From: Pseudoxanthomonas sp. JBR18 | Lineage (GTDB): Bacteria > Pseudomonadota > Gammaproteobacteria > Xanthomonadales > Xanthomonadaceae | DNA: 64,000 nucleotides | NCBI RefSeq assembly: GCF_028198165.1 | Contig: NZ_CP116339.1 | Location: 4,532,556-4,596,555 of the forward strand | Direction: 5' to 3' | Shown here: one piece after another, positions 47,716-64,000 of the stretch | Layout of the letters: each line of letters starts with the position of its first letter | Numbering within the stretch: position 1 is the first letter of the stretch | Made by a program: the position numbers and the translations under genes | Notes under the pieces: model-generated | Database searches by the model: none | The model's input: the letters and a program-made list of their open reading frames with translations, nothing else | What the model was told of the DNA's origin: nothing

Positions 47716-50700
47716 CTACTGCTCGTCTTTCGGGCGGCGGTACATGAGGTAGGCCGCCGCCTCGGCCGGGTTGTCAGGGGTGTACTGCCCGGTGCCCACG
47801 TCGTAGAGGTATTCGCCGGTGGTCAGCATCTGGTTGCTGGGGATGCCGGTCACCGGTCCGGCAGCGCGAACGCCGGTCTTGATCAGCTTCTCCGTGTCGA
47901 CCTCATCGTCCTCGGCGAACCAGTCGTGTCCCTCAGTCCATGCCGCCTGGCCGAACCTGGAGAGGGCCACGCCAGCGTCGACGATCGGATTGGGCCGGCT
48001 CGACTGGTGTTTGCCTTCCATGGCCGCCTCGACGGCCGATGCCACTTCACGCACCAGCGGGAACGTCTGCAGCGGGAACAGCGCCGACTTGCGTGCAAGC
48101 CAGGCCGCCCAGTCGTCTGCATCCAGGCCGTCGTCGTCATCGTCTCCAGGACCGCGCCCCATCATCAGCTCGAACACGGCGTTGGAGACCACGGCGGCAG
48201 ACAGCCACGTGCCGATGGCTCGCGCTGGCGACTGCACCCGGCCCAGGTACAGCCCGCGCAAGCCTGACTCCTGCAGCCGGTTGTTCATGATGACCATGGG
48301 GCCGATGAACATGCGCACCCACTTGTAGCGTGGGTCGCGCTCGGCGGCCGAGAGATCCTTGGGGGCGCCGGCTTGCTGCGTCTGCCGGATCGCCTTGTCC
48401 GCCAGCAGCACCGCATCGGCCTGGCCAGCTCCCTCGGCCAGGGCCTGCTGGTAGCGGCCCAGCCAAATGGCGCGCTCCGAGATCGGCACCACCCAGCGGT
48501 GCACCTCCATGGCCATCTTCATGGCCGCGGCGCGGATCCCCTTCTTCCCAGTGAGCTTGCCGAGCACCTGCTGGTAGCTCGTATCCAGCGAGTCCGCCCG
48601 GTCCAGCATGAAGGGCGACAGCTCGTGGATCGCGCGCGTTGCCGCAGCCGGGTTGCGGTAATAGGCCGTGTAGCCGGTCGCCAGGTACTTGGGATCCACG
48701 CGCGCGGCCGCCTGGATCGGCGCCACGACCGAGTTGGCCAGCACCAGCGGGATGCGAAAGCCGAGCGCGGCCACGGCCGTGTTGGTCAGCACGGCGTCGG
48801 CTAGCTTCTCGGTCATCTTCGACCCCGGCTCGGCGATCGACGCGCCGGCGACCGCGTTCTTCACGCTGCCGTAGAGCGAGTGATAGGCGCCCTCGGACAG
48901 CCGCTCGATGATCAGGCCTTTCAGCTCGCCGTCCTCCAGGACCCGCAGCGCCTGCTTCACATAGCCGCGGTGGGACAGGTCGGTGATCACGTCGTTAAGG
49001 TGGCGCGACAGCACTGCGTGGTAGTCCAGCAGCATCGGTGCGACGTAGTCGGTGCGCTCCTTGGTGTGACCCTTGCTGGTCATGGCCCGCGAGAACGTCC
49101 CGCCCATCACGCGCTCCTCGGCCGCGCGCGCCTGTTGGGTGCCGCCGCGCGAGGCCCGGGGGTCGTACACGGCCGGGTAGTAGCCGCCGCGCAGGCTGAT
49201 CTGCGCGCCGCCGGCACCGGTGAAGACCAGGGGCGTCGGCTCGATGCGCTCCGGCGCAACACCGGATAGGCGCTTCTGCTGCGCCTCGATGTCCGGCCAC
49301 AGCGAATCCACGGCATCCCAGATCCGCTGGATCATCTGCCCATCGGCCGGCGTCAAATGCCCCAGCATCTCGGCGATGGTCCCATGGGTGAATCCGGTCG
49401 TGCCGCCGTCGGACAGGTAGCCGCCGCGCATCAGCTTGTCGCGATTGCCGGCGTTGCCCATGTTCAGCGCCAGCGACACGATCGTGTTGCGGGACACCGA
49501 GCGCCCAAGGCCCTGGATGTACACCTTCCGCTGCAGGTCAGCGCGCTGCTCGCTGGTCATCGCGTCGGCCATCTCGGCCAGCATGCCGCCGACCTTCTTG
49601 CGGTAGTCGATCCGCAGCTGTTGGGCGGCCTCGGCCTGGTTCCACAGGTAGTCGTGCCAGGGGCCGGATTCGCCGCCGTCCAGCCACTCGACGACCGTTT
49701 CCGGCCGCACGACCCAGTCCAGCAGGCCCTCGTAGGCCGCGCCCACGCGCTGCATCACGGTGCGGTCGGCGTCCGAGAACGGGACCGGGGCGCCAGACGC
49801 AAGCGCGGTGCGGATCGCGTCGGCCATCTCGGCCTGGGCGGCCTTCCATTCCCGCTTGTCCTTGCCCTTCAGCAGTTCGTTCTTGAGCCTGGCCAGGTGC
49901 GCGATGTTGGTCACCGCGTCGTGCAGCTCGCGCAGCTCGGCCAGCGTCATGTCCTGGTAGTTGGTGACCCGCTCGGCCTCCACGCGCGCCAGCAGCGTGT
50001 CCGTCACGGCGGTCAGGTCGTCGTCGGCCTGCCGCGCCTCCACCCAGGCCCGCAGCGACTGACGGCGCGCCACTTCGCGGCCAGACACCGGCCGGAACTC
50101 GAACGCCTCGGTCAGCGCGTCCATGGCCTCCAGGTAGTCGGCGCCGGCCAGGCCCAGGCGCTCGCGGGCCTTGCCCTCGCTCTGCCTGCGGATGTCGCCC
50201 GCCTTGCTGGAGATCTCGTCCTTGGCGCGACGCGCGGCGGCGTAGAGGGCCGCGTTCAGCGCCTGCCGGCGCTTGGCCAGCAGCGCGGCCCCATAGTCAC
50301 CGCCGGCCGCCGCGCGTGCGGAGTCGGCAGCCGCGCGGCGCTCGGCCACCAAGTAGTCGTTCGGGCGGATCTGCCGGTCCGTCTTGCGGGCCACCACGTC
50401 TTCCGCAACCGCGCGCAGCTCGCGCCGATTGGGGCGCGGCTCGCCGGCCAGCTGCGCCAGCACAGCCAACTCGCGATCAAGCACCTGGACGCGCTTGGAG
50501 TTGTGCACCGCTTCCAGTGCCAGCGCCGGCAGCGACCCATCGGTCATCGGGTTGCCGTGCCGCTCGTGCATGCGCCGGCGCACCTCATCCGGGATCGTCG
50601 CCAGCACCTGGTCCACACCCCACAGCCCCTGCACCAGCTCGTCGCCGGAGGAGAACCCCAGCAGCGCCGCCGCCTCGTCTGGATGAATCCCGCCATCGCG

Positions 50701-53700
50701 CGTGTAGACCCTGCCCAGCTTCTTGAGGTGATCGGCGCCGTAGTCGGCCACCAGCGTTGCGCGGTCCAGCTTCATGCCCTGCAGCTCTGCCGGCACAGCC
50801 TCGCCCGCCGCTTCGGCCGCGCCGGACAGGATGCGCCGCGCGCGCACCGCCGGCTGCGCCTCGATCTCGGCCTGTACCTCCTCGCGGACCTTCGCCGATT
50901 CGTCCTTCCACCAGCGTTCGCGCTCGCGGTTGTGCGCCTCCTCCAGCTTCTGCTGCACCTCGGCCCGGGCTTCTTCCGCAGCGGCGGCGAGCAGGCGCTG
51001 GTAGTCGCTGAACTGCTTCTCGGTGAGCCCGAGCTGGGCCGCTTCGTTGGCCGTACGAGCCAACGGCTGCGCGCCGGACCTGGCCTGGGCCACCTCGATC
51101 TCGGCCTCGGTCGCCAGCATGCGGTCGAACACGCCGCGCACCTCGTCAGTCAGCTGCACATTCAGGCCGGCCAGGGTGCGGTAGACGCCCAGCAGCCAGG
51201 CCCGGAACTGCGAGAACACCGACTGCAGGTCAGCCGACGGCGCCCGGCCCTCGCCCAGATACGCCTCGAAGCCGCGCGCGAACTGCTCGTGCTGCTCGGT
51301 GCCGATCTTCTCCGGCGAGTCCACGCCCAGCCACTGCAGCAGCGCGTCGAAGTCCGCGCGCACCTGCGGCGATGCGCCCTCTGCCGTCGCGGCGTCGCTG
51401 TAGACCTCCAGGAAGAAGTGCCCGGACTCGTGCAGGAACGTGGACAGGTCAGCCGACTCGAACAGGCTGATCGCCATGCGCTGGTCGGGGAACACGTCGA
51501 TGCGACCACGGTTGTCGGCATCCTCGGTCGGCGCCTGGAAGAACCGGCGCACCGATTCGAACGCACGCCGCAGGATGCCGCCCTCAGAAGCAGGAACCCC
51601 GCCGGTGGGCGGGGTCTGGTCGGTTACTTGCTGGCGGTCTGCCGGTTCAGGTTGTCCACCACGACCTGCGCCCAGTTGCTGGGCATCTTCGGTCGGCTTT
51701 CCGAGGAAGCCTTGGTAGGCGGTATCGGAGATTTCACCGGCGGCGCGGGCTTCTTCAAGGCTGGCGCGAAGGTCTTCATAGAGACGAGTCTGCTCCACTT
51801 CCGGCAGGCTTTCAAGCGGTGCCAGCACCGCGGCATTGCGCCCTCGGCTGTTGTCTACCGCTACCACCTCGACCCGGTCGTCACCGGCGTACCGCTCGGC
51901 CAGCTGTCGGATCACCTTGGCGGAGCCGGCGTGGGTCTTGGCGTGCTCGGCGATCGGCACGGTTCGGCCGGTCCCCTGCTCGGCGGCCATGCGCATCGCC
52001 CGGGGCAACGCGCCGCCGCGCAGCGCCTCCACCGGGTCGCGGTAGGTGTACAGGATTTTGACATCGCGTCCTGCCTGCAGCGCCTGGTCGATCTTCTGCG
52101 CAGCGGAGGCCAGCGTGTTCATGTTCGTGTCGTAGATGATCTCCGGCCTGCCGAGGCTGTCCCCCAGCATGCGCAGGCCCGTCGTCTTGCCGGCACCGGT
52201 GCCGCCGGCCGAGAACAGCACGGTGGGGCTCATCCCTTCCGGCGTCGGCGCTTCCAGCTTGCGGCGATACAGCTCCTTCACGAAGTCGCTGGCCGCTTCG
52301 TGCACGTCGGCGCTGCGCGTGCGGTCGGCCCGATATTCCGGGGACAGCTCGCGCGCCAAGTCCGTGTTCAACACCCGGCCGCCTTCGGTGTCGAACTCGC
52401 CAGTCTGTGCGGCGTAATCAGCTGCGGCGGTGTCGAAGTCGGTCGTCCAACGCTCGCGCATCGCCGCGCCAGCGGCGGGCTCGTTGGCGGCTGGAGCCTG
52501 GGCCATGGAGGTCGCGCCAGGCGTCTCGGATTCGGTCCCGGCGCGGATGCCGGCCATCCGCTCCCGGTAGAGCGTGAGCGGATCCTGGCCAGTCATCTCG
52601 CCCAGGCGCCCGAAGGCTGCCCCCCAGAGTTTGGACTGGGCCTCTGCCTGCGCCGGGGTGTAGCGCTGCGTGGCCAGGAGCTGCGCGTAGACATCGGCCT
52701 GCACCTCGGTGGCCGTGTTGGGCGCCTGCGCATCGCTGGCCGTCTGCGGCCCGATGCCCAGTTCCTGGGCGATCGACTCGGGGTCGAAGGTCTCCAACTC
52801 GACCTCGGACATCCCCTCCGCGGACAAGCGGGCGTGCCGCCGGATCTCCTCGACGTTGGGCATGCGCGACACGACGCTGACCCACTTGGCCATCGGGATC
52901 GAGACATCGCCGCTGGCCATCTGCTCGGCCAGCACCTCAGGACCGCCGACCGCTTCCTCAAGCGTGCCCGGCGACGACTGAAACAAGGTCGAGACCGCGT
53001 CGGCCGGCAGGTAGACCCGTGCATCGCCGGCGCCGGAGGCCTCTACGAACGCCTCGGCATCCGCCGGCGAACGCTCCACCAGCTTGGTGCTCGCCGCGGT
53101 GTCGGTGATGTCCTTCAGCTGCGCGACCTGGTCGGTGGAGGCAACGGCCTGCTGCACCTGCTCGCCGAAGGCGCGCTGCTGGGCCTGAGATGGCCCGCCG
53201 CCGCCGGCAGCCTCCAGCAGACCCATCGGACCGCCCACGATCATGGCGTCCAGCACCTGCGCGAGTTTCTCGCTGGTCGGGGTCTGCTTGCCCTGCAGCA
53301 GATCCTCGGCGTCCACCTGGGCAGCCTGGGTGGCGCCTTCCGAGATGGCCTCGGACAGCGGCGTGGTGATGAACCGACGCGCGCCGCCGCCGAATGCGTG
53401 CGACAGGGGCACGATGGAGCCGACCGCCTCGATGCTGCCTTGTGCTGCGCCCTCTTGCAGCGCCTGCATGTCGCTCGCGCCCTCGTTCACCCGGTCCGCG
53501 TAGGTCTGCATGCCCGTGGTGGCGCCCATCGCCGCGGCGCCAATGTCCGGCCTGCGCGTGGCCAACGCAAACAGCATGGCCGGGACCGAGTCGGCCAACA
53601 TGCCGCCGTAGTACCGCAGGGAGTTGCCGGGCGCATCGACCGCCGCGCCCACGCTGGCCGGGCGCTGGGCCTGGCTTCCAAGGCTCTGCTGCTGCGCGGT

Positions 53701-54390
53701 CAGATCGCGCGTGAAGCCCTGGGCGGCGTTGGACAACCCCTGCACGCCCATCGGGTCCCGGTACGCTTCTGCGGCGCGCGCCAGGGCCTGCTGGCGCTCG
53801 GTGTCGCCCTGCTCGGCCGCCGCCTCTGCTGCGCGCTGGTACTGCTCGGATACGGTCCGATTGGCGATGTCCGCGAAGGACAGCATGCGGCCGAGAGACT
53901 GCGCCGCGGTCGAGAACATCTTGGCGTCGGAGACCTTGAACCTGGCGCCCAGGTAGTCGAGCGTGGTCCCCACGTCGGCGTTGTAGGTGCTGTCGCTGAT
54001 CGGCAGCAGGTTGCGGATGGTGCGATGGAAAAACCCCATGTCCTCCGGCTCGCGCGTGCCGGCCAGGCTGCCGGACAGCCGCTCCAGGCCCTGGGCCTCA
54101 TCACCAGCCAACGCCATGCGGCGGGGATCGGACAGGAACTGGCCCACGACCGGGGCGCGCTGCCCGACCGAATCGAGGTCATCGAGCCGATCCTGCTGGT
54201 GGAAGTCCTGCAGGTTGTCGGCGACCACACCGAAGGGCAGGCCACGCCGCGTTGCGATGTCGTTGGCGCGGGCGGCGTCTTCGGGGCGCTGCTCGCCCGT
54301 GGAGACAGCGGCCGCGCGCAGGCGTTGCTTGCGCTGATCCTCGATCTGGTCGGCGAGGTCGTCGAATCCGTCCAGCAGGTTGTCGGTCAC
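47716..54390 (-). CDS. Giant polyvalent virion (ejection) protein with zeta-toxin-like kinase and HExxH motif
   Basis: A 2224-residue protein with GTG start overlapping the previous stop by four bases. It lies in the place of T7 gp16. From the N-terminus: about 250 polar helical residues, small hydrophobic segments at about 260-360 (GMLADSVPAMLFALATRRPD; GAAAMGATTGMQTYADRV), a P-loop kinase at about 715-870 (LFSAGGTGAGKTTGLRMLG with Lys735; IIYDTNMNT; ILYTYRDPVEALRGG; GRTVPIAEHA) resembling zeta toxins, a HExxH segment STFLHESGHFFLEVYSD at 987-991, a long coiled coil (about 1130-1230), and a C-terminal LPD38-like region (FRIPLVLANSVVAPIQAA; ISERAIWLGRYQQALAEGAG) with a hydrophobic stretch near 2090. 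The multi-domain make-up is that of polyvalent proteins co-injected with DNA. Kinase and peptidase activities are unproven. Confidence 0.85.
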   Translation of the reverse strand: MTDNLLDGFDDLADQIEDQRKQRLRAAAVSTGEQRPEDAARANDIATRRGLPFGVVADNLQDFHQQDRLDDLDSVGQRAPVVGQFLSDPRRMALAGDEAQGLERLSGSLAGTREPEDMGFFHRTIRNLLPISDSTYNADVGTTLDYLGARFKVSDAKMFSTAAQSLGRMLSFADIANRTVSEQYQRAAEAAAEQGDTERQQALARAAEAYRDPMGVQGLSNAAQGFTRDLTAQQQSLGSQAQRPASVGAAVDAPGNSLRYYGGMLADSVPAMLFALATRRPDIGAAAMGATTGMQTYADRVNEGASDMQALQEGAAQGSIEAVGSIVPLSHAFGGGARRFITTPLSEAISEGATQAAQVDAEDLLQGKQTPTSEKLAQVLDAMIVGGPMGLLEAAGGGGPSQAQQRAFGEQVQQAVASTDQVAQLKDITDTAASTKLVERSPADAEAFVEASGAGDARVYLPADAVSTLFQSSPGTLEEAVGGPEVLAEQMASGDVSIPMAKWVSVVSRMPNVEEIRRHARLSAEGMSEVELETFDPESIAQELGIGPQTASDAQAPNTATEVQADVYAQLLATQRYTPAQAEAQSKLWGAAFGRLGEMTGQDPLTLYRERMAGIRAGTESETPGATSMAQAPAANEPAAGAAMRERWTTDFDTAAADYAAQTGEFDTEGGRVLNTDLARELSPEYRADRTRSADVHEAASDFVKELYRRKLEAPTPEGMSPTVLFSAGGTGAGKTTGLRMLGDSLGRPEIIYDTNMNTLASAAQKIDQALQAGRDVKILYTYRDPVEALRGGALPRAMRMAAEQGTGRTVPIAEHAKTHAGSAKVIRQLAERYAGDDRVEVVAVDNSRGRNAAVLAPLESLPEVEQTRLYEDLRASLEEARAAGEISDTAYQGFLGKPTEDAQQLGAGRGGQPEPADRQQVTDQTPPTGGVPASEGGILRRAFESVRRFFQAPTEDADNRGRIDVFPDQRMAISLFESADLSTFLHESGHFFLEVYSDAATAEGASPQVRADFDALLQWLGVDSPEKIGTEQHEQFARGFEAYLGEGRAPSADLQSVFSQFRAWLLGVYRTLAGLNVQLTDEVRGVFDRMLATEAEIEVAQARSGAQPLARTANEAAQLGLTEKQFSDYQRLLAAAAEEARAEVQQKLEEAHNRERERWWKDESAKVREEVQAEIEAQPAVRARRILSGAAEAAGEAVPAELQGMKLDRATLVADYGADHLKKLGRVYTRDGGIHPDEAAALLGFSSGDELVQGLWGVDQVLATIPDEVRRRMHERHGNPMTDGSLPALALEAVHNSKRVQVLDRELAVLAQLAGEPRPNRRELRAVAEDVVARKTDRQIRPNDYLVAERRAAADSARAAAGGDYGAALLAKRRQALNAALYAAARRAKDEISSKAGDIRRQSEGKARERLGLAGADYLEAMDALTEAFEFRPVSGREVARRQSLRAWVEARQADDDLTAVTDTLLARVEAERVTNYQDMTLAELRELHDAVTNIAHLARLKNELLKGKDKREWKAAQAEMADAIRTALASGAPVPFSDADRTVMQRVGAAYEGLLDWVVRPETVVEWLDGGESGPWHDYLWNQAEAAQQLRIDYRKKVGGMLAEMADAMTSEQRADLQRKVYIQGLGRSVSRNTIVSLALNMGNAGNRDKLMRGGYLSDGGTTGFTHGTIAEMLGHLTPADGQMIQRIWDAVDSLWPDIEAQQKRLSGVAPERIEPTPLVFTGAGGAQISLRGGYYPAVYDPRASRGGTQQARAAEERVMGGTFSRAMTSKGHTKERTDYVAPMLLDYHAVLSRHLNDVITDLSHRGYVKQALRVLEDGELKGLIIERLSEGAYHSLYGSVKNAVAGASIAEPGSKMTEKLADAVLTNTAVAALGFRIPLVLANSVVAPIQAAARVDPKYLATGYTAYYRNPAAATRAIHELSPFMLDRADSLDTSYQQVLGKLTGKKGIRAAAMKMAMEVHRWVVPISERAIWLGRYQQALAEGAGQADAVLLADKAIRQTQQAGAPKDLSAAERDPRYKWVRMFIGPMVIMNNRLQESGLRGLYLGRVQSPARAIGTWLSAAVVSNAVFELMMGRGPGDDDDDGLDADDWAAWLARKSALFPLQTFPLVREVASAVEAAMEGKHQSSRPNPIVDAGVALSRFGQAAWTEGHDWFAEDDEVDTEKLIKTGVRAAGPVTGIPSNQMLTTGEYLYDVGTGQYTPDNPAEAAAYLMYRRPKDEQ

Positions 54391-56594: not shown

Positions 56595-57169
56595 TAGGAG
56601 AGCATGCCTCCCGAGTAGATGTTGGATCGGCCATAGGTGCTGCCCCCGAGATTGGCGCTGCCGTTGACGCGCGAGGCCGATCCCGCAGAGGCGCCGCCAT
56701 AGATCGAAGCGGCGGACGCCAGCGAGCCGAGCACAGTCCCCGTGGCCTGCGACTTGCCCGACCACCTGGAGAGGCTGCCCTGGTTGCGGTAGTTCGTCGC
56801 CTGCGCGTTGTAGCCCCAAGCCTGGCGCGCAGCGTTGAGGCGGATCGTCTGCTGGTCCACCTCGCCAAACATGGCCGTCTCACCCAGGATCTCCGACGGC
56901 GTGCCCAACGTCGGGTCGATGTTGTTCGCCGCAATGGCGGCGCGCTGCTGCCCGATCAGCGCCCGGGTGCGCCACGCCTGCTCCTGAGACTCGCGCGTTC
57001 CCATCGCGTTGGCGTTGTCGGCCTCCGCCTGGGCCAGGCGCGCGTTGTTCTCCTCGATCTCGGCTTGCGCCTGGCCCTGCTTCTTCTGCTGGTCGGCGGT
57101 GTACAGGCCGGTCGCCACGGTCGCGCCGATCGCGAGCCAGGCGGCAGTGACGGTGGTGACTTCACACAT
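56594..57169 (-). CDS. Internal virion protein, gp14-like
   Basis: A 191-residue protein. ATG 57169 gives MCEVTTVTAAWLAIGATVAT with one hydrophobic segment at about 5-25, then a long Gln/Ala/Glu-rich helix (TADQQKKQGQAQAEIEENNA) and a Gly/Ser-rich C-terminal half. Size, hydrophobic start and place (before the gp15- and gp16-position genes) match T7 gp14, which forms the outer-membrane pore during ejection. The stop shares one base with the next start (TAATG). Confidence 0.75.
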   Translation of the reverse strand: MCEVTTVTAAWLAIGATVATGLYTADQQKKQGQAQAEIEENNARLAQAEADNANAMGTRESQEQAWRTRALIGQQRAAIAANNIDPTLGTPSEILGETAMFGEVDQQTIRLNAARQAWGYNAQATNYRNQGSLSRWSGKSQATGTVLGSLASAASIYGGASAGSASRVNGSANLGGSTYGRSNIYSGGMLS

Positions 57170-57644
57170 GGGTTGCACTCCGGCGATAGAAAGGGCGGAA
57201 CGGAAGCGCATCCGGCCCGTAGGTGATCGGATCGATCAAGGTGAAGCCGAGCCAGCGCAACCAGCGCTTGGCGGCGGTGTTCCGGTCGTCCACGAGGTTG
57301 AACAGCATCTCGGGGAACTGGTCCTGCATGAACTCGACCACCGGGCGGGACAGGCGCACCAGCTCCTTCTGCACGGACGCCGGCTGAAGGCCGGTGGACC
57401 CGATCATCCAGGGCGAGCCCTTGCTGCTCAGGATCGAGTAGGGCGCGATGCCGAACATGCAGACCGGCACGCCATCGATCAGGCCGGTGTAGGCGTGGCG
57501 CGATACGGTCAGGCCCTGCCGCATGGCCTGCTCGGGGGTCACCCTGCAGCTTGCCCACAGCTCCGCCACGTCGGCCGGGCGCGGCGTGGCTGCGATGGCC
57601 TCGATATGCGCCTCGGTGGCGGCGACGATCTGCGCGCGCGCCAT
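57162..57644 (-). CDS. Phage acetyltransferase-like protein (T7 gp13 / DUF2833 type)
   Basis: A 160-residue GNAT-like protein: ARAQIVAATEAHIEAIAATP, AYTGLIDGVPVCMFGIAPYS, PEMLFNLVDDRNTAAKRWLR and LGFTLIDPITYGPDALPFRP. T7 gp13 has this fold and is needed for assembly of the ejection proteins, usually without confirmed acetyltransferase activity. Its start shares one base with the nozzle C-half stop, and its end overlaps the gp14-like gene by eight bases. Confidence 0.78.
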   Translation of the reverse strand: MARAQIVAATEAHIEAIAATPRPADVAELWASCRVTPEQAMRQGLTVSRHAYTGLIDGVPVCMFGIAPYSILSSKGSPWMIGSTGLQPASVQKELVRLSRPVVEFMQDQFPEMLFNLVDDRNTAAKRWLRWLGFTLIDPITYGPDALPFRPFYRRSATHV

Positions 57645-59293
57645 CAGGTCTCCGATGCCGCGATCTTCGGCAGGATCGACAGCACCTCCATGGGCAGCGG
57701 ATCATCCGAGACGATGTGCACGTGTCCGGTGTCCTGGCCCCATTGCGCGCTCAGCGGCAGCTGCAGCACGCCATCGGATGGACTGGTCGGTTCGTCGTAG
57801 TTCTCGAACTCGCGCTGCGGGACCGGATCCAGCAAGTCCAGACTGGTGCCGAAGTAGACGCCCACCGTGTGCCGGACCTGTAGCGCCATCTGAAACGTCA
57901 GCTTCTTCATCGGTCGCATCGGCTCGCCGCCGGACGCGTTGACCTCCAGGGTCTCGATGTGACCACGGTAGCCCAGACCCACCTGCACCACGCCGGCCGG
58001 GCTGTCCAGGGAAATCGCGCCCCCCGTGACCGTTCGCTTCGGGTGCACGGAGCCATCCACCAGCACGACGACCTCCCGGCCTTCCAGGTGACCAAGCCCC
58101 GAGATGCTGTCGCGCTGGAAGGTCCACCCGGTCGTAGCCACGCCGCGCAGTGCCTCGGGCACGGTGCCGATCGAGTTGACCGTCACAACCGTCGATGAGG
58201 TGTAACCGATGATGCGCACGCGCACACGGCTCTCGCCGCTGGTGATGACAAACCCGTCGCCCACATCACTGGCGCCCACGAACTTCGCGGCGCTGGCGGT
58301 CAGGGTCAGTGCGTCGTTCTCGGTCCAGCCGCCGCCCGGGCTGTCCAGCTTCACCGTCGTGGTGTCGGTATTCCGGCCGTCGTAGGTCAGCAGCGAGTCG
58401 GAATATTTGTAATCCGCTGGATCCTCGTAGCGCGTCGGCGCCATCTGCTCGATGTACTGGACCGATTGCCCATTGATCTGGCGCTGCACCAGGACATAGG
58501 TCTGCGTCTCGTCCTGCCGTGGCAGGCAGCACACGTCCAGGATCTGCCCCTGGGTGTCGTGCGGATGCCAGCCGGTCACCTCCTGCTCGGGCAGGTAGGT
58601 GCAGCCGATCATGACGCCATCGTTGCGCACGATCCACACGACAGACCACGGCGCCGGCGCAAATTCGAGCTGCTTGAAGCTGTAGCCCTCCACCAGGTGG
58701 TCGGCCCAGATCGACAGATCCACGCCGCGGAACCCGTCTTTCTCGAACTGGTAGCCCAGATCGCGGACGTGCTGGCCCTGCTCCTTGATGAACAGCGCGG
58801 TGTCGCCGGTGACGCGCGCCTGGGTCGATCCGGAGCCATGGTTCGATTGCGGCTTGACGCCGATCGTGCTGGGCGTGACCACATCGTCCTGGCCGCCGGT
58901 GACCTTGTACTCCCCGCCCGTGGTCATGATCAGCAGGCTGTCCAGCGGCACCAGGTCGCGGATGGCGTTCACCTGCCGCGCGTTGATCGTGAAGGAGACC
59001 GCGTCGCTGTCGATGATCGGGGAGCTGCGCCCGAAGTTGTTGTAGTCGCCGATGTTCGACGCCCACACCGTCTGCGGGTCGGCCACCGATCCGGCGAACC
59101 ACAGCCGGTCATTGAAGAACTCGGCTTCGCCTGGATACCCGAAACGCTCCGACCAGGCGCCGACCGCCCAGATGTAGGTCCCGCCCGATCCTCCAGCACC
59201 GAACTCCTTGACGCTGATGGCCGCGCCGTTTGCAGGCGGCTCGTAGAACGTGATCGTGTCCGCCGTGGCATTGATCGTCCAGCCCTGTGCCAT
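57644..59293 (-). CDS. Tail nozzle/stabilisation protein, C-terminal half
   Basis: A 549-residue virion protein from ATG 59293 with AGGAG seven bases ahead. It opens inside a beta-sandwich domain (AQGWTINATADTITFYEPPA; NGAAISVKEFG) whose first strands lie at the end of the preceding gene. The remaining part is the family's C-terminal region: GAWSERFGYPGEAEFFNDRL, WFAGSVADPQTVWASNIGDY and NAIRDLVPLDSLLIMTTGGE. In related phages these features sit in one polypeptide with the N-half, so this gene is probably a product of gene division. It lies in the same frame as the N-half, after an amber codon and three sense codons. Confidence 0.82.
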   Translation of the reverse strand: MAQGWTINATADTITFYEPPANGAAISVKEFGAGGSGGTYIWAVGAWSERFGYPGEAEFFNDRLWFAGSVADPQTVWASNIGDYNNFGRSSPIIDSDAVSFTINARQVNAIRDLVPLDSLLIMTTGGEYKVTGGQDDVVTPSTIGVKPQSNHGSGSTQARVTGDTALFIKEQGQHVRDLGYQFEKDGFRGVDLSIWADHLVEGYSFKQLEFAPAPWSVVWIVRNDGVMIGCTYLPEQEVTGWHPHDTQGQILDVCCLPRQDETQTYVLVQRQINGQSVQYIEQMAPTRYEDPADYKYSDSLLTYDGRNTDTTTVKLDSPGGGWTENDALTLTASAAKFVGASDVGDGFVITSGESRVRVRIIGYTSSTVVTVNSIGTVPEALRGVATTGWTFQRDSISGLGHLEGREVVVLVDGSVHPKRTVTGGAISLDSPAGVVQVGLGYRGHIETLEVNASGGEPMRPMKKLTFQMALQVRHTVGVYFGTSLDLLDPVPQREFENYDEPTSPSDGVLQLPLSAQWGQDTGHVHIVSDDPLPMEVLSILPKIAASET

Positions 59294-59302
59294 CGTCGTC
59301 TC

Positions 59303-60817
59303 CTACGGCTTGTACAGGATGTTATGCGTGGCGATCGTCGAATCGCTGCGCTCACCGGCGAAGAACATGCAATTGCCGAAGTCCGGCTTGCATACGGCCC
59401 GGCGGCCCATCGGCATCACCGAGGCCACCTCGAATCCATCCCTGTGCGTCAGCACCTGCTCGCCGTCCAGGTCCGGCGTCTTGACGACGCGCCCATCCTT
59501 CATGTCCATGGGCGTGCTATTGCTCTGCACCACGCTTCCATGCGCCGTGCTGACGCGGCAGCAGTCCTCATATCCGAACGTCATGGCCAGTAGTGGCTTG
59601 TAGGTGCGCTCGCCGGTGGCGATGTCCACGCATTCGACCAGGTCGCCAACTCGCAAGCTGCGCACGAGCCGGCCATCTGGCAGAACGGAATTCCAGTCCA
59701 CGCAGTATGGTAGGTCGGGATCGCCGTAACCAGGATTTGACTGGGCCGGAGATCCGGCAATCGACACGGTATAGCTGGCCTCGGAAAGCGCAGTGGCCCC
59801 GGTGATGTTGAACACGGTCTGAGAGCCGTTCCCGGTGAAGGACCACGTATTGCCGGGTGTCGGAAGGGTGCCGGCGACGCTATCGGGCAGGCGCTCGATC
59901 ACCACGGCGGTCGCGTTGCGCGCGTCGGTCACCGCCTGGATGCGGAGGATGCCAAAGGTGTTGTGCAGGAATTCCCACTCCACACCGGTGGCGTAGCTGT
60001 TCACGCCGTCGTCCTTGATGTCCTGGGGGCCGTCGAATGCCCGGCCCGTGTCGTGCACCGGCCTGGTGCCGCCGGTCTGGTAGAACGGCGTGCCCTTGCC
60101 GCCCAGGCTGGACGGGATGCTGACCAGCTTATAGACCTTCTCGTCCGAGCGCCGGATAGTGCCCACCGGCGGGTTCTTCTCGCCGCTCACCCATGGCTTG
60201 ATCCCGCGAAGCTCCTTCTCCTCCATGTAGATGAGTGAGCCGATCATGGCGCTGGTGAACACGTCCACGTTCGTGCTCACTGCGACCACGCCTGTCGTAG
60301 CAGAGGCCACCATCAGGTAGGCGTCGTTCGTGTTGGGCTGACGGAACGGACCGCGCTTGAACGCGAAGTCCACGATCACAAAGGTGGTGGCGTCCGTGCG
60401 ACGCAGCTCCTTGGGCGCGACGCTGGGATGCACCATGTAGAGCACGTCGGCCGACTGCGTGAACCGCACGTCATAGATCATGCTGCCGATGTACGGCGTG
60501 GCGACCTCCACGATGTTGTTGCTGCCGTCGCGCAACAGCACGCCATCGACCCAGAAACGCAGATAGGCGTCGCCCATCTCGATCAGGTAGTTGATGGTTG
60601 TGGAGTAGATGAAGGGGATGATGCGGGTGGCCCGGTCGCTGTATTTGACCTGCCCCCGGAACATGAAGCCGGGGCGCTTGGCCGCGCCGCCGGTCGGCTT
60701 GGTGATCACGTTCCGGCAGGTCTTCAGGCTTGTGGCGTAGCGGGCCAGATCGATGCGGCCCTGCAGGCCGGGCGAAAGCTCGCCGCCGGATAGGCTGGGC
60801 TGGGTGAATCGTGGCAT
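59303..60817 (-). CDS. Tail nozzle/stabilisation protein, N-terminal half, ending in a Hint (intein-like) domain
   Basis: A 504-residue protein. Residues 1-371 are the nozzle N-half (RFTQPSLSGGELSPGLQGRI; KTCRNVITKPTGGAAKRPGF; VYKLVSIPSSLGG), ending in FTGNGSQTVFNITGATALSE and YTVSIAG, the first strands of the domain that resumes in the next gene. Residues 372-504 form a Hint domain: Cys372, LPDGRLVRSLRVGDLVEC, TAHGSVVQSNSTPMDMKDG, and HN at 498-499, then ILYKP and TAG. The adaptor gene ends one base upstream of this start. Confidence 0.82.
   Translation of the reverse strand: MPRFTQPSLSGGELSPGLQGRIDLARYATSLKTCRNVITKPTGGAAKRPGFMFRGQVKYSDRATRIIPFIYSTTINYLIEMGDAYLRFWVDGVLLRDGSNNIVEVATPYIGSMIYDVRFTQSADVLYMVHPSVAPKELRRTDATTFVIVDFAFKRGPFRQPNTNDAYLMVASATTGVVAVSTNVDVFTSAMIGSLIYMEEKELRGIKPWVSGEKNPPVGTIRRSDEKVYKLVSIPSSLGGKGTPFYQTGGTRPVHDTGRAFDGPQDIKDDGVNSYATGVEWEFLHNTFGILRIQAVTDARNATAVVIERLPDSVAGTLPTPGNTWSFTGNGSQTVFNITGATALSEASYTVSIAGSPAQSNPGYGDPDLPYCVDWNSVLPDGRLVRSLRVGDLVECVDIATGERTYKPLLAMTFGYEDCCRVSTAHGSVVQSNSTPMDMKDGRVVKTPDLDGEQVLTHRDGFEVASVMPMGRRAVCKPDFGNCMFFAGERSDSTIATHNILYKP
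59306..59704 (-). other. Hint (BIL/intein-like) self-processing domain
   Basis: A 133-residue segment from Cys1 (codon 59704-59702) to the amber stop. Block A is CVDWNSVLPDGRLVRSLRVG with the catalytic Cys. The block B region reads SVVQSNSTPMDMKDG, where the usual TxxH is SxxT, so the block B His appears replaced. The end is ATHN followed by ILYKP. HN is the standard intein terminus, but the +1 residue is Ile, not Cys, Ser or Thr, which points to cleavage rather than splicing. No homing endonuclease is present. Confidence 0.75.
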
Positions 60818-60818
60818 G

Positions 60819-61460
60819 TCAGGCCCTCGCCGCCAGGCTTTCGGTCATCGGCCTGACGTTCTGCTCTGCCTGGTTGAACTCGACCGCAGCAGCCTCGCTG
60901 AGCGCGGTCTGATACAGCTGCTTGAGGTTCGGCTTCGCGTTCATGCCGCGGTCGCCGATCATTGGGGGCGCCGCCTCCTCAGCCAACTTGCAGGCCAGGG
61001 CATCCACGAAATGGGGCGGGAAGCGCTCGGTATCGGAGACGCGGCAGATGTAGATGAGCCAGGCCTTTTCCAGGTCGGTCTGTATGCTGGTGCTGCTCTC
61101 GCCGTAGCTGCGCTCGAACTCGTAGGCGTACTGGGCGGACGCCTGCTGGTCGCACCAAATCGACATGCGACGCGTGGCGCGCATTCCCTGTTCGTCCGTG
61201 ACCGCCACCACGCGCAAGCAATCGCTCGGCGTCGAGTAGCGCCACTGCCAACCCGGGAGCGGGGCGTCACCCGCAAGCGCCCCAAGCTGAGCCTTCAGTG
61301 CCCACGGCCAGTTCCGCTCAACCAGCACCAGGTCAGACATTGGATCCCACAGCCGGCCGAACACACGCGCGGCCTTTGACTGGTCGGTGACCGCGGCAAT
61401 GCCGACATCCTGCGCCAGCTTGCCGATGGCCAGGTTGATGATGTCCACCTTGGAGACCAT
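60819..61460 (-). CDS. Head-to-tail adaptor / tail tubular protein A-like
   Basis: A 213-residue protein from ATG 61460 with GAGGAC just ahead (MVSKVDIINLAIGKLAQDVG). Family patterns are SKAARVFGRLWDPMSDLVLV, ERNWPWALKAQLG, YSTPSDCLRVVAV and FVDALACKLAEEAAPPMIGD, as in T7 gp11-like adaptors (helical bundle with a C-terminal hook). It docks the nozzle to the portal. A terminator hairpin separates it from the capsid gene group upstream. Confidence 0.85.
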   Translation of the reverse strand: MVSKVDIINLAIGKLAQDVGIAAVTDQSKAARVFGRLWDPMSDLVLVERNWPWALKAQLGALAGDAPLPGWQWRYSTPSDCLRVVAVTDEQGMRATRRMSIWCDQQASAQYAYEFERSYGESSTSIQTDLEKAWLIYICRVSDTERFPPHFVDALACKLAEEAAPPMIGDRGMNAKPNLKQLYQTALSEAAAVEFNQAEQNVRPMTESLAARA

Positions 61461-61480
61461 GTTCGTCCTCAAAATGCAGA

Positions 61481-63381: not shown

Positions 63382-64000
63382 CTATTTGCCGTCGCCGAAC
63401 AGCCGGGTGGCGAGGTCGGTGGACCTGCTGGGCGCGGTGCTACCGCCCAGGCCGTCCATGCCGCTGTCGCGGGCGATGCCTCCGAAGAACGCGAACGCCT
63501 TGATCAGCGCTGGATGGCTTCCCCACCCCAGGTCCTCGAATGCCGCGATCAGTGCCGGGTCGTTCACCGCCCGAACGGCGGTGCGTGCCAGGTCGACATG
63601 CTCGTCGTACTTCTCGCCGAGCTGGGTCTTCGCTTGCGCGCCCCAGTCCTCGATCTGCTGCTGGCGCTGGGCGGTGAGCGCGGCCTGGATCGCTGCGGCG
63701 TCTTCACCGGCGACGCGGGTGTACAGGTCGACGGCCTCCTGGGCCTGTTCCTGCGTCCACCCCTTCGCCTTGAAGAACTCCGTCGCGGTGTTCAGCCGAT
63801 CCCCCTCCAGCGAGAAGCCGTCCGGCAGCTTGAACTGCCCGTACTGCTCCGGTGCGCCGGCGGGCTTGTCTCCGCCCTCCTTCTCCCCGTCCGCGGGCTT
63901 GTCGCCCTTGGCCGGTTCCTGCTTACCACCTTCGTTGCCCTGACCCTCGGAGGTGCCCGGCGCGGTGGCCTGCCCCTCCTGCTGCTTCGCGGCCTCGTTG
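63382..64000 (-). CDS. Scaffold-like head assembly protein (C-terminal part)
   Basis: The last 205 codons are visible, with the start beyond the window. The N-terminal visible part is disordered and rich in Gly, Glu, Lys and Pro (KQEPAKGDKPADGEKEGG). Then come helices (NTATEFFKAKGWTQEQAQEA; DAAAIQAALTAQRQQQIEDW; GAQAKTQLGEKYDEHVDLAR) and a short C-terminal domain ending STDLATRLFGDGK. Place before the capsid gene and the acidic/coiled composition fit a scaffold. It could instead be a capsid-associated protease fusion in its missing part. Confidence 0.7.
   Translation of the reverse strand, partial: NEAAKQQEGQATAPGTSEGQGNEGGKQEPAKGDKPADGEKEGGDKPAGAPEQYGQFKLPDGFSLEGDRLNTATEFFKAKGWTQEQAQEAVDLYTRVAGEDAAAIQAALTAQRQQQIEDWGAQAKTQLGEKYDEHVDLARTAVRAVNDPALIAAFEDLGWGSHPALIKAFAFFGGIARDSGMDGLGGSTAPSRSTDLATRLFGDGK

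Follow-up and report, generated by a model that had tools for sequence, protein, structure and literature searches.

A phage tail nozzle encoded by two genes and divided within an accessory beta-domain, with a Hint domain at the end of its first chain

Two adjacent nozzle genes in the window

The window analysed here, a stretch of 64,000 nucleotides from Pseudoxanthomonas sp. JBR18, contains two adjacent genes on the minus strand that together correspond to a podovirus tail nozzle. The first (ORF1, 59303–60817, minus strand) encodes the N-terminal half, 504 aa long, made up of nozzle core (residues 1–318), the first half of an accessory beta-domain with a short linker to Cys372 (residues 319–371; 59705–59863, minus strand), and a Hint domain with its tail (residues 372–504; 59306–59704, minus strand). 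The second (ORF2, 57644–59293, minus strand) encodes the C-terminal half, 549 aa long, in which residues 1 to about 39 are the second half of the beta-domain and the remainder is nozzle core. At the junction, TAGGAGACGACGATG (59291–59305, minus strand), the ORF1 stop codon overlaps a Shine-Dalgarno sequence and the ORF2 start follows after 9 nt. A sequence error as the cause of the two ORFs was ruled out, as ORF2 has its own Shine-Dalgarno sequence and the layout (stop, 9 nt, ATG) recurs in five other Hint-bearing nozzle loci.

The genes around the pair encode tail, internal virion and transglycosylase proteins. The upstream neighbour is a tail protein in the tubular A or adaptor position (60819–61472, minus strand; phrog_394), and the downstream neighbour is an internal virion protein (57162–57644, minus strand; phrog_308). 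A 2224-aa ORF in the virion gene cluster (47716–54390, minus strand) matches LPD22 and Zeta_toxin-type entries of Pfam and may encode a large polyvalent protein of the phage. Position 64000 of the window is the end of the only contig (4,596,555 bases); if this contig is circular, the prophage continues at its other end.

PHROG 376, a family of one-chain tail proteins, is matched consecutively by the two ORFs, at 5–271 by ORF1 and at 273–709 by ORF2. This order, among virion genes, bears out the original prediction of a nozzle encoded by two genes. The best PHROG matches are to two half-nozzle families, phrog_20269 for ORF1 and phrog_15566 for ORF2, so split forms of the nozzle are already present in PHROGs. 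Alignment to undivided homologues, which had been proposed as a check, placed both ORFs consecutively on one-chain nozzles: one chain spans both halves in epsilon15, BcepC6B, YA3 and AF, and ORF1 residues 55–318 match the Carin1 tail chain 8ck1_A, the corresponding gene being named tail nozzle in the Carin1 phage record. The expectation that nozzles of related phages are single chains held for epsilon15, BcepC6B, YA3 and AF, but not for other relatives: the sequence of phage CP2 has the same two genes, split, without a Hint domain, and eight other Xanthomonas phages have a CP2-like pattern, read from match tables only. Three longer ORF1 relatives that were scanned have a Pfam E1_FCCH match at residues 113–173 approximately, outside the Hint and beta-domains.

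Position of the break and its distribution among relatives

The break was located by comparison with undivided chains. The gap between the two nozzle parts is 1–9 residues in 64 of 66 measurable single chains, and 86 and 90 residues in the single chains of L054 and L067. The beta-domain is absent from 64 of the 66 chains and whole in two; L067 carries a continuous form of the domain that is divided in the window. Undivided relatives with this domain may be undercounted in the protein searches, which were limited in length (about 882 and 961 aa). Because single chains mostly lack this domain and L067 has it whole, the cut affects an accessory domain and not the nozzle core, and it probably lies at a tolerant site. 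Nozzles of the epsilon15, BcepC6B and Carin1 type are thus like the window's pair in that both halves align to them, and unlike it in being one chain, mostly without the beta-domain.

The prediction that the break lies inside a single beta-domain is supported by the second half at the start of ORF2 and by the whole version in L067. It had also been claimed that the spike of the same phage (45670–47652, minus strand) carries this domain uninterrupted; the N-terminal domain of the spike does resemble it, and the likeness was convincing for the second half but not for the first. The first half-domain alone was modelled by AF2 with a pLDDT of about 32 over ORF1 residues 321–370, a low value that would be expected if the second chain is needed and that a shallow alignment could give as well.

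The break and the Hint domain are distributed differently. The best 120 of 486 ORF1 relatives were considered (query included, taken from the 8000 candidates sharing most words, with chains up to about 882 aa). In this set, 26 chains end with a Hint domain and 94 with a Gly-rich tail without Hint (for example NPYYPGGGGVGGGGGG..RPG); the latter, judged by their ORF1 ends with their ORF2 outside view, have GGG in the last 50 residues in 87 cases and a looser Gly-rich tail in seven. Given its length limit, this set does not serve to count undivided nozzles, and a second protein search, which listed 30 proteins of 540–570 aa (chains up to about 961 aa), says little on them either.

On a tree built from the N-terminal part only, the Hint label changes four times (shuffled mean 23.7): 23 Hint-bearing sequences form one clade and three others (P0022, P0043, P0075) lie singly inside Hint-less clades. 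A single Hint clade was rejected (p-AU 7.7e-6; 73 of the 120 sequences, namely the 26 with Hint and 47 of the 94 without) in a test that was run after the tree had been seen, with groups defined by protein ends. The changes could be gains or losses; the three lone sequences, whose contigs are likely metagenomic and could in part be chimaeras, favour gains.

Searches of viral, phage and genome sequences (best 80 of 582 in one search) gave at least 116 distinct nozzle loci, of which 49 are split and 67 have one chain; these exclude seven loci that have no nozzle genes and L046, where ORF2 is missing at a contig end. Removal of L146, a broken nozzle without beta-domain, brought the domain-split loci from 49 to 48 and those with a Gly-rich tail from 39 to 38. 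Many of these 48 loci are near copies. In 38 of them ORF1 has a Gly-rich tail and ORF2 is directly adjacent, five have a Hint domain (six with the window), three (L047, L071, L078) have the Gly-rich stretch where ORF2 starts instead of where ORF1 ends, and two have an endonuclease-like ORF between the halves.

These distributions bear directly on the proposal that the nozzle gene, once intact, was split by the entry of an intein-like element. The Hint domain and the break are at the same place, and ORF2 is in the same frame as ORF1, 9 nt past its stop codon, in six of six Hint-bearing nozzle loci, window included. However, the break occurs at this same place in Hint-less relatives, which make up most of both the listed chains and the split loci, the Hint-bearing sequences are scattered in Hint-less clades, and the 9-nt spacing is also present without Hint (L041, L045) and fits a Shine-Dalgarno sequence. 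A split caused by the Hint domain is largely contradicted and highly improbable; the Hint domain looks like an added module rather than the cause of the split.

Another origin is suggested by L061 and L058, where an ORF lies exactly between the nozzle halves (L061:6384–6965, 194 aa; L058:6399–6926, 176 aa) and matches PHROG endonuclease VII (E 8e-10 and 8e-14) as well as phrog_26577. A free-standing endonuclease gene may have inserted in a loop of the beta-domain and later been lost in most lineages, leaving a gene in pieces. PMC10448857 describes how a homing endonuclease gene split the gene of a nucleotide reductase; as may be the case for the nozzle, two half genes give one protein there. 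Against this origin, the intervening ORF was found in only two of the 48 loci and may have entered an existing gap, and a Pfam scan of the two ORFs gave no endonuclease match. Because of this low count the endonuclease origin is only a lead, tentative in our view, and compatible with the explanation that we favour below. Fractured genes likewise consist of two half genes that give one protein; the nozzle pair differs from them in that its ORFs carry no split-intein halves and that it is a virion structural gene.

The Hint domain, its class and its carriers

ORF1 residues 372–504 match the intein fold, as had been predicted for a Hedgehog/intein (Hint) domain, and the domain is well folded in the AF2 model. 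Cys372 aligns to intein residue 1, Ser432 occupies block-B position 7 (B:7) and Thr435 the B:10 position; the domain ends at His498-Asn499, followed by the tail ILYKP. The gp41-1 intein was matched better (E 8.8e-5) than the BIL 2lwy, whose profile match is at noise level (E 0.14, with the unrelated NifE at E 0.15). Pfam and NCBIfam do not see this phage family, and Pfam PT-HINT (PF07591) gave no match to it.

Residues were counted in 57 distinct Hint members. Ser at B:7 and the terminal His-Asn are present in 57 of 57, an invariance that is partly built in because the sequences were selected by HN and to some extent by Ser. This does not apply to Cys1, present in all 56 readable members (L175, a partial match, was left out), nor to the loss of the block-B His, which is replaced in every member, by Thr in 51 and by Ala in 6. 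The +1 residue is not Cys, Ser or Thr in 55 of 57 (Ser or Thr in two, Cys in none), and 4–11 residues follow HN. GGG occurs within 30 residues before Cys in 37 members, and not in the window's copy.

A class 1 intein was rejected for the window's domain: the +1 residue is Ile500, there are five residues and then a stop, with neither a +1 Cys, Ser or Thr nor a C-extein, and in block B Ser432 is present but Thr435 stands in place of His. The same features set the phage Hint apart from the gp41-1 and DnaB mini-inteins, which are class 1. Trans-splicing by a split intein was rejected as well, as ORF2 starts directly with the nozzle beta-domain, with no intein C-part, and the Hint domain on ORF1 spans the whole intein fold. 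The sequence His498-Asn499-Ile500, that is, a C-terminal HN without +1 nucleophile, is the arrangement of type A BIL domains; the phage Hints differ from these by the replaced block-B His, by the few residues after the domain and by their carriers, which are phage proteins. The Hedgehog C-terminal autoprocessing domain has a sterol-recognition region; the phage Hint, in contrast, retains the intein-type C-terminal HN, and nothing that follows it is able to be such a region.

The Hint domain is kept by selection, as its dN/dS is 0.10–0.31 (five pairs from six sequences, with dS near 1 in places); the corresponding range for the ORF1 core is 0.07–0.35. In the window's clade, the Hint protein sequence changes about two to four times faster than the ORF1 core. 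This faster change, the replacement of the block-B His throughout the family and the well-folded predicted structure would suit a Hint domain with little or no catalytic activity that remains attached to the nozzle in a structural or folding role. We consider this unlikely, as Cys1, Ser, His and Asn are kept across very different carriers and, according to PMC7664689, some inteins that lack the block-B or the penultimate His are active and splice.

These carriers are not only nozzles. Members of the Hint family also stand at the end of proteins that match tail or tail-fibre families of PHROG (P0121, P0122, P0124), of large unclassified ORFs of 858–1473 codons (L178–L183, L186, L187), of proteins from the jumbo phages LucasX, XacN1 and PhiXhv-12, of a VlrC-named protein of DLP_6, and of others. 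The protein end lies within 4–11 residues of HN in 29 of 29 non-nozzle Hint loci read. The module is rare, being found in 5 of 398 genomes of the order and in 3 of 398 of a phylum sample (own genome in both, at most 10 candidates scored per genome), and a protein search of the own genome found only the ORF1 copy. The Hint domain recurs at the C-terminus of phage tail proteins, and on more than one occasion it was apparently acquired at the same chain end. A literature search by titles and openings of abstracts, with bioRxiv and most subscription papers outside its reach, showed nothing on a two-gene nozzle or on a C-terminal Hint domain on phage tail proteins.

Several individual cases were observed. 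In DLP_6 (L003:4447–6114), the gene of the VlrC-named protein with the terminal Hint overlaps by 1 nt with another VlrC-named gene downstream of it, a layout that resembles the nozzle pair. The genome G782, outside the order, has five Hint-module matches on five contigs (L171–L175). The nozzle N-terminal half P0014 has a tandem partial duplication of the start of its Hint domain, perhaps an assembly artefact. L188 and L187 share DNA of 95% identity that starts shortly before the linker (in L188, linker and Hint begin at about 3952), spans the Hint domain and extends about 4 kb beyond it. In front of this stretch they differ, with a long ORF of tail type in L187 and, in L188, a short N-terminus that is lipoprotein-like and includes a Pro-rich stretch. 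Either a module was swapped at the linker or the assembly is chimaeric.

A divided nozzle and a candidate processing module

The explanation that we favour, with a probability of roughly 0.6, is that the nozzle is encoded by two genes split in an accessory beta-domain, and that the Hint domain is a separately added C-terminal module plausibly capable of intein-like processing. The two adjacent genes, probably translationally coupled, would give two chains that come together to complete the shared beta-domain. The split would be an old trait of the phage clade, independent of the Hint domain, and a mobile module, often consisting of a Gly-rich linker, Cys, Hint, His-Asn and a short tail, would have joined the first chain at its C-terminus more than once, and other phage tail proteins likewise.

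Type A BILs, with HN and no +1 nucleophile, mostly cleave; the route proposed for them is that an N-terminal thioester forms, Asn cyclises and the amine so released attacks (PMC4031507). In a similar way, Cys372 may take over the preceding peptide bond as a thioester, and the Hint domain may then be hydrolysed off, or the short tail may take its place once Asn499 has cyclised. The product would be a nozzle N-chain that, as in Hint-less relatives, ends in a short flexible tail. Self-cleavage is plausible from the residues as aligned; it may also be slow, conditional or absent, because the His that normally drives the first step is the one replaced in all members of the family.

The short tail, which often ends in KP, may be transferred, or the thioester may join both nozzle chains. 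In the latter case the Cys372 thioester would weld the N-chain to an amine, either the N-terminus of ORF2 or another, neighbouring virion protein, during assembly, giving a covalently closed nozzle. Two chain ends do meet in one beta-domain, attack of a free amine on the thioester is part of the BIL route just described, and the module recurs on several phage proteins. However, most relatives manage without a Hint domain, and no second half was seen beside the few non-nozzle carriers viewed downstream (L080, L085), which makes such ligation quite improbable. If it were true, a split gene would be re-joined at the protein level by a one-sided Hint domain acting on a separate polypeptide, and the tail-tip-like proteins bearing the module would make use of the same chemistry.

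The favoured explanation, a divided nozzle with an independently acquired Hint module, separates two matters that the original prediction had joined, the two-piece nozzle and the recurrent Hint family. The nozzle is one chain in many phages, yet it is encoded in two pieces in one phage clade. If the Hint domain cleaves, these phage tails would undergo a post-translational trimming driven by their own subunits and achieved without the usual block-B His, which would bear both on Hint catalysis and on tail assembly.
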